DNA of 64,000 bases. It comes from Tabrizicola aquatica (GTDB lineage: Bacteria; Pseudomonadota; Alphaproteobacteria; Rhodobacterales; Rhodobacteraceae). Positions 22,169 through 28,670 of this stretch are shown piece after piece (position 1 is the first letter of the stretch; each line of letters starts with the position of its first letter). The DNA is taken from positions 620,001-684,000 of the forward strand of contig NZ_PJON01000002.1 of the NCBI RefSeq assembly GCF_002900975.1, given 5' to 3'. A program made the translations under genes and the position numbers. Below the pieces are notes generated by a model that ran no database searches, was not told the DNA's origin, and saw nothing but the letters and a program-made list of their open reading frames with translations.

Positions 22169-23161
22169 ATGTTGCACAGACTTGCCACGCGGATGACAGC
22201 GTTTCTGGGGGTGGCCCTGCTTTGTGCCGCCGGGATCGCACATGCCGACAACATCCCGGGTTCGCCGGCACAAGTGGTGCCGGAACTGACCGAAGCCGCG
22301 GCCGACCTGCAGGTTCGGTCGATCAAGGACAACATGCGCCCCCTGCGCGAACCTGGTTCGGCAGGGATAAGCATTTCCACATCGGGCGTGGTCGACGGGA
22401 TCGGCGGCAGCTTCGGGGCCGAGATGCCTTTGGCCCTGCGGCTGGACTATCGCGACCTGGACACGGATCGGCTGGATGGCTCGCTGATGGCCGGAAGCGT
22501 GCTTCTCGGCCGCGCGATCGGTGACCGGACGCTGCTTTTCGGCGGCCTGATGACCGAAAGGCTGGATACCGATACCCTGTACAATAATGGCTGGATCGAA
22601 GCGCAGGGCCTGGGCCTGGCGCTTGGCCTGGACTATCGGGCCAGCGACCGCCTGTTCCTGACCGGCATCCTGGGCCACATGGCGCTGGACTATGATGTCA
22701 GCCGCAATGGCGGGATCACCGGCAGCTTCGATGCCCGCCGGACCTTCCTTGACCTTAGCGGCGATTACCTGACCCGGGCCGGCAAGGCTGACCTGATCTT
22801 GGGCTTCGGTCTGCTTTACGTCACACAGAAGAACGACGGCTACGCGGAAAGCGGGGGCGCGCTGGTCGACGGTTTCACCAGCGACCGGCTGACGGGCAAG
22901 CTGTCTGCCCGCACCTTCTGGGGCCAGCCGGGCGACATGCGTCCCTACGTCGATGCCGAGGGGTTCTTCCGGCTTTCGGGCTCGACCGGGTTGCCGACCG
23001 CGCTTGATCCCGGGGATGAGGCCGATTGGTCGGCCCGGTTGGGCGTCGGGGTTCAGCAGAGCACGTCAGGCTCTGGGTTCGACGCCGGGATCGGTGCGAA
23101 TTTCGGTGACGACGCGTTCGAAGGGTTGGACGCCAAGTTGAGATACACGCTGCGATTCTGA
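22169..23161 (+). CDS. Outer-membrane beta-barrel protein (autotransporter-like)
   Basis: A 330-residue exported protein: signal peptide MLHRLATRMTAFLGVALLCA with cleavage near AHA-DN, a short linker, then alternating amphipathic beta strands (for example LFLTGILGHMALDYDV, KADLILGFGLLYVTQK) ending in the Phe-terminated strand AKLRYTLRF, the usual signature for BamA-dependent insertion. It resembles autotransporter translocator barrels, but no passenger domain precedes it. A second ATG at 22193 could be used. It is the first gene of the exosortase-linked run and ends 2 bp before it. Confidence 0.78.
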   Translation: MLHRLATRMTAFLGVALLCAAGIAHADNIPGSPAQVVPELTEAAADLQVRSIKDNMRPLREPGSAGISISTSGVVDGIGGSFGAEMPLALRLDYRDLDTDRLDGSLMAGSVLLGRAIGDRTLLFGGLMTERLDTDTLYNNGWIEAQGLGLALGLDYRASDRLFLTGILGHMALDYDVSRNGGITGSFDARRTFLDLSGDYLTRAGKADLILGFGLLYVTQKNDGYAESGGALVDGFTSDRLTGKLSARTFWGQPGDMRPYVDAEGFFRLSGSTGLPTALDPGDEADWSARLGVGVQQSTSGSGFDAGIGANFGDDAFEGLDAKLRYTLRF

Positions 23162-23163
23162 CC

Positions 23164-24174
23164 TTGCGTGAACAGTCCCTGGCCATTGGGCTTCCACTGG
23201 TGGTGCTTGCGGTTGGCTTTGCCCTTGCCGACACAGGCGCCGGTCGCGCCCTGGGTGATGCCGTTGCCACGGGTCTGGCCGGTCTGGCTGCACCGCTGCT
23301 GCGCATGCTGGAGCCGGGTTTGCAGCAGATCGGAACCGAGTTGCGCAGCCCCGAAGGTTGGGCCGTGCGGGTCAGCGAGGTCTGCGATGGTCACGGCCTG
23401 GTCATCTCGCTGGCGGCGGGGCTCGCGGCGCTTGCACCGGGATGGCAGAGCGGCCTGGTCCGGCTGGCGGTCGGTCTTGTGGCCATCCAATTCTTTAACC
23501 TGGTGCGGATCGTCGCATTGGCTGTGACGCTGGACGGTGCGCCCGCTGCCTTCGATCTGGTTCATGCCGGGGTCTTTCCCTATCTGACGGTCGCCTTGCT
23601 GGCGCTGTGCCTGTTGCCCCTTCGCCCGGCTGTGGGCCTTGTGGCACTGGCATTGCCGCTGGCTCTGCTGTGGTTGCCCTTTGCTGATACGCTTGCGGCC
23701 GTGTTCGTCCCTGCCGCCAACCTGGTGCTGTCGCTTTTGGCTGGGCCCGAGATTGGCGAACTCGCGCTGCGGACGGCCGGTTGGACGGTCGGCACCAACT
23801 TGTTGGCTTCGCCCGAGGGAGAGGCCGTGCGCCGCTTCCTTGCCCCGTTGCGTCCTGCCGACTTTGCCCTTGCGGTGCCGGTTCTGCTGGCCGCGGTGCT
23901 GCTGGCGCGGCGGCCACTCTGGCTGGCGGGCGCGATCCTCGCCATCCTTGCCGCGTTGTGCATCGCCGCCGTGGCAACCGTCTGGACCCTGGCCGAGGCC
24001 CGGGCCCCCGCGACGGTCCTTCTGCCCGATGGTGCCGGCGGGCTTGTCGCCCAGCCCTTTGCACCGCCGCAAACTGGGGTGACGCTTTTGCGACTTCTGC
24101 AAAGTGTGCTGGTGCATCTGAACCTGCTTGTCTTGCCGATGCTGATTCTGGCCAAGGGGGGATCGCGTGACTGA
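23164..24174 (+). CDS. Exosortase/archaeosortase-family transpeptidase (XrtH-like)
   Basis: A 336-residue polytopic membrane protein. The catalytic triad of the family is readable: Cys74 in EVCDGHG, Arg115 in FFNLVRIVAL and His134 in FDLVHAGVFPY, with the surrounding hydrophobic pattern of XrtH-type enzymes. These cleave C-terminal sorting tails of exported proteins and attach them to lipid or another acceptor. The 170-residue C-terminal part adds more membrane helices and is not part of the core. It starts with TTG 2 bp after the barrel gene and overlaps the next gene by 8 bp. The likely substrate is the Thr/Pro protein at 27900. Confidence 0.85.
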   Translation: MREQSLAIGLPLVVLAVGFALADTGAGRALGDAVATGLAGLAAPLLRMLEPGLQQIGTELRSPEGWAVRVSEVCDGHGLVISLAAGLAALAPGWQSGLVRLAVGLVAIQFFNLVRIVALAVTLDGAPAAFDLVHAGVFPYLTVALLALCLLPLRPAVGLVALALPLALLWLPFADTLAAVFVPAANLVLSLLAGPEIGELALRTAGWTVGTNLLASPEGEAVRRFLAPLRPADFALAVPVLLAAVLLARRPLWLAGAILAILAALCIAAVATVWTLAEARAPATVLLPDGAGGLVAQPFAPPQTGVTLLRLLQSVLVHLNLLVLPMLILAKGGSRD

Positions 24175-27813: not shown

Positions 27814-27899
27814 TGTGCCTTGCCATGCAGATCGGTTGCCTGATGCGGGTGTTCTCTGTTACGGTGATTTACGGTATTCATTCGGGTGGGGCTCGTCAG

Positions 27900-28670
27900 A
27901 TGACGCTTCGGGCGGGGTTGATCGGCGGCCTATCGGCAGCAGCCATTTTCCTGGTCGGTCTGCCCATTGCGGCGCAAACTGATGCTGTGTCCGAAACGCC
28001 GACCCCGACCCCGACGCCGACTCCCGCAATGACGCTCCTTTGGCCCGACCTGATCGGTGGGCTGGCCGGCCTTGCCGGATTTCTGGTGCTGATGGACGCG
28101 CGGGACAGTGATCCGCCGCCGATCCCGACCAGCACACCCATCCCGACCGAAGCGCCACCGACGGCGACACCGACCGTCACGGCGACACCGACGAACACGG
28201 TCACCCCGACACCGACGAACACGCCGACAAATACGCCGACGAACACAGCCACGCTGACGCCCACCAATACGCCGACGAACACGGCCACCCTGACCCCGAC
28301 GAACACGCCGACCAACTCGATCACCCCGACCCCAACAAACACGCTGACAGCGACGCCCACCAACACGCCAACTGATACGCCCACCGCCACGCCTACATCT
28401 ACGCCAGAGCCTCTGGCGGCTGGACGGGTGGCAATTGAATCGCCGACGCCGACCATCTCTGAGGTCCCCACCGAGACGCCCACCCAGGTGCCAGTGACGC
28501 CCACTCCGGAAGTGACGGTGACCGATACAGTGACGCCAACCTCCACGCCAGTGGACGTGCCGGTGCTGCCGGGTGCAGGCGGGCCGGGTGGGACACTGCC
28601 CTTCACCCTGATCGCGGCCCTGCTGGCCCTTGCCGGCCTGCTGCTTTGGGCCCGCCGCAGCCCGGGATAA
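27900..28670 (+). CDS. Secreted Thr/Pro-rich mucin-like protein with sorting tail
   Basis: A 256-residue protein: signal peptide (1-26, ending PIAAQ), TP-rich stretch (33-42), an internal hydrophobic segment (about 44-66, [20 protein letters not shown]), a Thr/Pro/Asn repeat region (74-170), a lower-complexity TP region (181-219), then a C-terminal tail: Pro/Gly-rich [12 protein letters not shown], hydrophobic helix (about 233-250) and basic ARRSPG. That motif-helix-basic plan is a sorting signal. The ATG at 27900 is chosen because a signal peptide begins there. It follows the exosortase-GT-YYY genes and is the likely exosortase substrate. Confidence 0.8.
28119..28409 (+). repeat. Low-complexity Thr/Pro/Asn-coding repeat
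   Basis: Degenerate tandem repeats built from ACGCCGAC / AACACG-type 6- to 12-mers encode [14 protein letters not shown] units inside the mucin-like gene. This is a coding repeat likely to vary in copy number by slippage. It is not a CRISPR array: units are continuous, with no unique spacers. Confidence 0.85.

Follow-up and report, generated by a model that had tools for sequence, protein, structure and literature searches.

The 64,000-nucleotide stretch of the Tabrizicola aquatica genome analyzed here (contig NZ_PJON01000002.1, positions 620,001 to 684,000; the window) carries an island that codes for an exosortase-family enzyme, a threonine- and proline-rich (TP) mucin-like protein with a C-terminal sorting tail, and several candidate glycosyltransferases (Table 1). 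Between positions 22169 and 28670, five genes lie head to tail on the forward strand and code for an outer-membrane protein (OMP), the exosortase, a GT-C enzyme (GTC1), a DUF2298/YYY membrane protein (YYY), and the TP protein. They are tightly packed, with 2 bp between the OMP and exosortase genes, overlaps of 8 bp between exosortase and GTC1 and of 4 bp between GTC1 and YYY, and 86 bp between YYY and TP; these coordinates agree with the run of five co-directional genes in the original prediction, which was made from the letters of the window. The TP start is taken as the ATG at 27900, and the mechanical open reading frame (ORF) begins at 27789.

The original prediction treated these five genes as a closed module, and they do belong to a real unit, but the proposed extent was too small. 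At the corresponding site of a same-genus genome (G191), blastn matches to window positions 14194 to 18254 and 33247 to 34802 abut (locus L053), with the desaturase-end match (window 18254) and the thiamine pyrophosphate-enzyme-end match (33247) about 40 bp apart, and profile searches of that genome give no match for YYY, the exosortase, the tail, or the OMP. Because positions 18255 to 33246 are missing from this congener as one block, we take the unit to be a 15-kb island. Beyond the first five genes it codes for a methyltransferase, a GT4 enzyme, a second GT-C enzyme (GTC2, minus strand), a UbiA-family enzyme, a flavin adenine dinucleotide (FAD) oxidoreductase, a flippase-like protein, and a GT2 enzyme (also minus strand). 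Scanning for promoters and terminators gave 0 promoter-like sites against 0.6 expected and 5 terminator-like sites against 5.4 expected.

Table 1. Features of the island, with positions in the window and the matches or occurrence on which each assignment draws
Feature	Position	Strand	Evidence or occurrence
Whole island	18255..33246		Missing in one piece from the corresponding site of same-genus G191 (blastn)
S-adenosylmethionine (SAM) methyltransferase	18258..19181	-	Relatives in 2/10 loci
GT4 glycosyltransferase	19170..20333	+	Relatives in 6/10 loci
GTC2, paralogue of GTC1	20324..22069 (putative start)	-	Found in 10/10 relatives' loci; PMT1 profile match E 0.02
Outer-membrane beta-barrel (OMP), autotransporter beta-domain type	22169..23161	+	PF03797 E 5e-10
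Exosortase-family enzyme, 336 amino acids	23164..24174	+	TIGR04178 28.9 bits (cut-off 23), invariant residues, hydrophobic segments
GT-C glycosyltransferase 1 (GTC1)	24167..25795	+	AlphaFold2 model and Foldseek; WD..HPDE motif near N-terminus
DUF2298/YYY membrane protein, GT-C-like fold	25792..27813	+	TIGR03662, PF10060, model and Foldseek
Thr/Pro-rich mucin-like (TP) protein, 256 amino acids	27900..28670	+	Signal-peptide-like start, composition, DNA repeats
C-terminal sorting tail of TP protein	28548..28667	+	[12 protein letters not shown] motif, hydrophobic stretch, WARR
UbiA-family prenyltransferase, decaprenyl-phosphate phosphoribosyltransferase-like	28674..29921	-	PRK08238 1.5e-90, PRK12324 2.1e-38, both under cut-off
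FAD-dependent amine-oxidase-family protein	29914..31233	-	PRK07233
Flippase-like / LPG_synthase_TM membrane protein	31218..32192	-	PF03706 1.4e-44, TIGR00374
GT2, polyprenyl-phosphate sugar synthase-like	32189..33181	-	PF00535; nearest NCBIfam PgfS (NF047588)

We note that just beyond the island, at 34803 to 38566, there is a second glycan block with a GT2 gene like the first, a methyltransferase, and a membrane protein with a GtrA domain, and that it is likewise missing at the G191 site.

The exosortase and its single tailed protein

The putative catalytic triad of exosortases consists of Cys, Asn-x-x-Arg, and His (PMC1569441; here and below, citations refer to the available parts of the sources), and the corresponding Cys74, Asn112-x-x-Arg115, and His134 of the window enzyme are invariant in all 11 aligned sequences; the Cys/Arg/His arrangement named in the original prediction thus survives alignment. 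The enzyme passes the TIGR04178 signature with 28.9 bits against a curated cut-off of 23, a cut-off exceeded by all 10 members scanned singly (23.8 to 38.7 bits). The named subfamilies XrtH, XrtX, XrtF, XrtM, and XrtY all score under their NCBIfam 20.0 cut-offs in the window protein and nine relatives, and an exosortase profile search against the PDB gave zero matches. The T. aquatica genome (3.87 Mb in 12 contigs, 99.97% complete) contains one TIGR04178 match above cut-off, which is the one at the island (3.8e-7), with the runner-up at E 0.75. Spread on known plasmids was considered and is unsupported, the exosortase being unmatched in the plasmid sequence set. The exosortase of one relative (L021, 6181 to 7155) has a C-terminal half that matches XrtH_assoc (NF041730, E 5e-5, under cut-off), and by its sequence it resembles a fusion of an exosortase with a partner that appears to be encoded separately in the case of XrtH.

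The TP protein ends in [40 protein letters not shown], and the 120 residues ahead of this tail are 40% Thr and 21% Pro; over up to 120 residues ahead of the tail, the Thr content of the eight complete TP proteins is 18 to 43%. Tails from seven other loci are 46 to 78% identical to that of the window, and positions P8-G9, G11, P18, and W34-A35-R36 are kept in 8/8 aligned tails. No NCBIfam 20.0 model matches the window tail above cut-off, and the best matches of the eight tails together are to DLW-39 (E 0.0014), which by name is not a sorting model, and then to LPXTG (E 0.011). Pfam and NCBIfam gave nothing informative for the TP protein. Near its N-terminus and ahead of the main repeats, the window protein has an additional short run of hydrophobic residues ([23 protein letters not shown]; coded at approximately 28026 to 28100). 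The L022 protein has one too (approximately 14884 to 14958), and none is seen in the other TP proteins compared. The tailed protein of L030 (9146 to 9889; the same locus as L007 and genome G004) has Cys-containing segments flanking its TP stretch, the proteins elsewhere being plainer repeat proteins.

Searching the whole genome with a profile of three tails gives one strong match (4.8e-21) and a runner-up at E 0.45, in a search that begins with a loose first look, which a strongly diverged tail could escape. In this search the observation of the original prediction that no other protein of the window has such a tail holds genome-wide. The many unrelated proteins with such a tail that could have spoken against the prediction have not appeared, and its proposal of one-substrate sorting is borne out to the extent that there is one exosortase over cut-off and one recognizable substrate in the genome. 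Because there is a single enzyme above cut-off and a single strong tail, and with both in one gene cluster, the locus corresponds to the published definition of a dedicated sorting system, which is one enzyme with a single target per genome (PMC3237569). Exosortases usually serve many proteins, and a short tail is easily overlooked; the locus could instead be an ordinary multi-substrate system in which further substrates carry tails too diverged for the profile. We think this improbable, given the E value of the next-best tail, the identity of the tails across loci, and the closeness of the target gene to the enzyme gene, as in dedicated pairs (PMC3237569). PEP-CTERM is without a match above cut-off in the genome (best E 0.83) and VPLPA-CTERM without one at E 1, and a multi-substrate PEP-CTERM system was dismissed on these absences and the single strong tail.

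Recurrence of the gene set in relatives

The package recurs in scattered relatives, mostly Rhodobacterales. An earlier contig scan with a single exosortase sequence gave no relative, and a scan using four aligned exosortases found 10 loci with the gene set; both scans use short peptide patterns, and further relatives may exist. With the window included and duplicates resolved (L024 is G225, and L030 is G004), the loci represent 11 distinct genomes. Eight of the 10 others are titled Rhodobacterales (counting Psychromarinibacter, which we take to belong to that order), one is a Pseudomonadota metagenome-assembled genome (MAG), and one is labeled Oceanobacillus sp. HTM 045 but falls within the family of the window (G004). 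Profile searches find GTC2, OMP, exosortase, GTC1, and YYY in 10/10 relatives' loci, with the L021 contig ending inside YYY. In the Roseovarius MAG locus L025, both GT-C genes (7029 to 8757 and 10966 to 12600) and a flippase-like gene are split over frames, through either sequencing error or decay. A TP protein with a complete tail is present in seven of the 10 relatives' loci as well as the window (8/11), and a TP-rich protein in all 10 testable loci (the window and nine others), including L022 and L029, whose contigs end inside the TP repeats; L021 is outside this count. Relatives that keep the exosortase and lack the mucin-like protein, which would have told against the original prediction, are therefore not seen among the testable loci. 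Alignment rows were omitted for L025 from GTC1 and GTC2 (broken frames), for L021 from YYY, and for L021, L022, and L029 from the tails (contig ends). Conservation in 10 other loci rules out chance ORFs.

Co-occurrence was followed in a family sample of 295 genomes from 294 genera, in which YYY, an intact exosortase, and a strong tail fall in the same three genomes. Weak tail matches occur in five other family genomes (E 0.001 to 0.006), all with partial tail coverage or in short frames, and an exosortase fragment is present in one genome, G184, beyond the three that carry the module. This G184 locus (L013, 6218 to 11280) has a whole OMP and a whole GT2 gene, and its exosortase and GTC2 genes are fragmented and adjoin ORFs that by eye resemble transposases; YYY was not found in the genome, and the locus looks like a decayed remnant of the module. 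Across a 398-genome sample of the phylum, YYY was found solely in the genome of the window. These counts carry no probability, as related genomes are not independent.

Genes of an island can also travel together without a common substrate, and consistent with this the gene order in L030/L007 differs from that of the other loci and the accessory genes vary. The core set is nevertheless present in all 11 loci (L021 and L025 being incomplete) despite the reordering and identities to the window down to 32 to 41% among the relatives. Five gene trees (10 or 11 rows each) divide the loci into three clades in the same way (FastTree support 0.61 to 1.0), and their agreement, together with the confinement of the markers to the same 3/295 genomes, makes mere co-travel very improbable.

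The OMP shares this distribution in large part, being full length in four of the 295 family genomes, namely the three with the module and the remnant G184. Its alignment (11 rows) has only A24, A26, N28, P30, G31, and S32 invariant before R95, and the resulting xN[IV]PGS motif directly follows an A-x-A signal-peptide-like site (A24/A26, read by eye). That the OMP acts as acceptor or dock is speculation. It is the least explained component of the island, and its invariant N-terminal motif offers a starting point for learning how the products of exosortases get to the outer membrane.

Glycosyltransferases, proposed pathway, and known systems

YYY is a member of its family (PF10060 E 4.7e-85; TIGR03662 369 bits against a cut-off of 300.25), and neither GTC1 nor GTC2 has a Pfam or NCBIfam match at E 1. 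AlphaFold2 models, built from 10-row alignments, have a mean predicted local distance difference test score (pLDDT) of 86.4 for GTC1 and 77.5 for YYY, with 94 of the 671 YYY residues below 50. Foldseek against the PDB places the GTC1 model with ALG12, OST, ALG9, ArnT, AftD, and PglB (E 1.1e-7 to 2.4e-5), with PMT entries only from 1.3e-3, and the YYY model with AftA (3.9e-6), DPY19 (1.6e-5), and ArnT (8.4e-3); a profile search of the PDB with GTC1 gave no credible match. The models thus support a shared GT-C fold class for GTC1 and YYY. Acidic motifs of the WD..HPDE kind are typical of GT-C enzymes, and the motif is present in 10/10 aligned GTC1 rows and 9/10 GTC2 rows. The more specific GT39 label that GTC1 received in the original prediction was rejected: there is no Pfam match at E 1, the PMT folds trail ALG12, OST, and ArnT, and GTC2 matches PMT1 only at E 0.02. 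The GTC1 model resembles GT-C enzymes in general, and neither a PMT profile nor a clearly best PMT fold was found.

The GT2 enzyme is nearest PgfS in NCBIfam but scores 288 bits against the NF047588 cut-off of 500, and is not assigned to the PgfS equivalog. Its gene lies near the module in eight of the 10 relatives' loci, the remaining two stopping at contig ends, and flippase-like genes are also present in L027, L029, and L030 at other positions. Within the module of L027, from an uncultured Roseovarius, there is a UDP-galactopyranose mutase gene (6837 to 7979, TIGR00031 above cut-off), hinting at furanose sugars.

We favor, with modest confidence, the interpretation that the island is a dedicated sorting and glycosylation system for one mucin-like surface protein. 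From the gene content, the single enzyme and tail, the conserved putative catalytic residues, the co-occurrence, the tree agreement, the borders, and the GT-C fold models of GTC1 and YYY, all of them observed or computed, we infer the biochemical steps, the sugar, the acceptor, and the OMP role. The GT2 enzyme, joined in some loci by UbiA and further enzymes, would load sugar onto polyprenyl phosphate, and the flippase-like protein would turn the lipid-linked sugar outward. GTC1, GTC2, and YYY may then transfer sugars to threonines of the Sec-exported TP protein while the tail keeps this protein anchored in the inner membrane. Using Cys74 together with Arg115 and His134, the exosortase would cleave at VPGxGG and pass the TP protein to a new anchor, with the co-encoded beta-barrel perhaps acting in its export or as its outer-membrane dock.

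Several observations weigh against this interpretation. The window exosortase has His-x-x-x-Phe where EpsH has the His-x-x-x-Gly that marks the EpsH type (PMC1569441), and it does not belong to that type. PF09721, which the original prediction had suggested searching for, is unmatched by the enzyme at E 1 and by anything in the genome at 0.001. TIGR04178 is a loose model that at E ≤10 matches 10 of 14 control genomes and is above cut-off in three of them. The Foldseek TM-scores are moderate, at approximately 0.3 to 0.6, and therefore support the fold class and not the substrate. Two other family genomes, G219 and G223 (the latter twice), and one further place in the T. aquatica genome give weaker, partial matches to the OMP profile. 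The UbiA, GT4, and methyltransferase genes are not universal, being present in 3/10 (one a short remnant), 6/10, and 2/10 relatives' loci, respectively. Lastly, polysaccharide can also be the product of GT-C enzymes in islands of this kind: a distant DUF2298 protein (30% identity) is coded on a Pseudobutyrivibrio plasmid (L047, 6653 to 8908) near O-antigen ligase-family and other glycan genes.

The island may accordingly be read as making a surface polysaccharide or glycolipid, perhaps rich in furanose, with the TP protein as a sorted partner that holds exopolysaccharide (EPS), as proposed for PEP-CTERM proteins, and not as the main sugar acceptor. Exosortase loci are typically EPS linked (PMC12188702), and the GT4, GT2, methyltransferase, and decaprenyl-phosphate phosphoribosyltransferase-like UbiA genes, the nearness of the YYY model to the arabinosyltransferase AftA, the mutase of L027, and the Pseudobutyrivibrio plasmid locus all fit such a role. 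Set against this, there is no known polymerase or export protein among the family-matched island genes, although GTC1 and GTC2, having no family, could be one, and a Thr-rich protein accompanies the core genes in every testable locus. We regard the polysaccharide reading, the main rival, as unlikely but deserving of serious consideration.

Dedicated sorting and glycosylation of the TP protein also invites a bolder extension, which we consider a long shot. The exosortase might be a transpeptidase that joins the VPGxGG-cut glycosylated mucin to the xN[IV]PGS N-terminus of the OMP, and YYY/DUF2298 proteins might be the glycosyltransferases that modify Thr-rich stalks in proteins sorted by exosortases and archaeosortases, and might thus also make the O-glycans of the haloarchaeal S-layer. 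If so, the mucin displayed by the cell would be linked covalently to a beta-barrel. More generally, environmental isolates such as Rhodobacter sp. SGA-6-6 (L023) and Roseovarius amoyensis GCL-8 (L026) carry the enzyme, its one substrate, and the candidate transferases as a single deletable unit, in which one protein suffices for tests of the exosortase acceptor, of what DUF2298 does, and of whether glycosylation or sorting comes first. A high content of Thr, Ser, and Asn characterizes PEP-CTERM proteins, for which glycosylation was suspected early (PMC1569441), but the usual PEP-CTERM systems have many substrates and no obvious transferases nearby, in contrast to this island.

The separate elements of the island are already known, namely dedicated sorting pairs, Thr-rich sorted glycoproteins, exosortases near EPS genes, and DUF2298 beside a PMT2-type gene. 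The last of these is found in a Chloroflexi genome (PMC8756737), where DUF2298 adjoins a PMT2-type protein of the GT-C mannosyltransferase superfamily much as YYY lies beside GTC1, although the available part of that report mentions no exosortase or tailed protein and gives no function. Among the named exosortase models, XrtH scores best for six of the 10 singly scanned members, reaching 54.6 bits, and XrtX for the other four, but all members are under the XrtH cut-off of 86, a partner-like region is in the same protein and matched in only one of the 10 (L021), and the window tail is unmatched by any NCBIfam sorting model over cut-off.

The Cnm/Pgf system of Streptococcus mutans likewise has a Thr-rich tailed surface protein, Cnm being LPxTG tailed and modified by the co-transcribed glycosyltransferase PgfS and the membrane proteins PgfM1 and PgfM2 (PMC5856776), and PgfS is the NCBIfam model nearest to the island GT2. 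It differs in being Gram positive, in its LPxTG tail and thus sortase, and in that Pgf also modifies WapA (PMC5856776); the GT2 enzyme is moreover under the PgfS cut-off, and GTC1 and GTC2 are without an NCBIfam match. Haloarchaeal S-layer glycoprotein and archaeosortase A (ArtA) similarly combine a Thr-rich stretch, there O-glycosylated, with an adjacent sorting tail of PGF, transmembrane segment, and basic end (PMC4245038, PMC7157517), and TIGR03662 is present in Haloferax volcanii, which served as a control for the YYY search. The O-glycosylation pathway was stated to be unknown in 2014 (PMC4245038). This system differs in being archaeal and in that ArtA serves several substrates (PMC4245038, PMC7157517), and an island of comparable composition was neither shown nor sought there.

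No description of a closed island that combines an exosortase with a single mucin, three proteins of GT-C type, a GT2, and an OMP is among the matches listed from the open-licence literature, judged by titles and abstract openings. The view in the original prediction that such a module is undescribed thus holds for the package, but dedicated single-target sorting is a kind of system already defined (PMC3237569). The dedicated exosortase and rhombosortase systems reported there by Haft and co-workers in 2011 likewise pair one enzyme with one nearby substrate bearing a motif, a transmembrane segment, and a basic end, and the T. aquatica island differs from them in having GT-C enzymes, a GT2 like lipid-sugar synthases, and an outer-membrane barrel in the same island.

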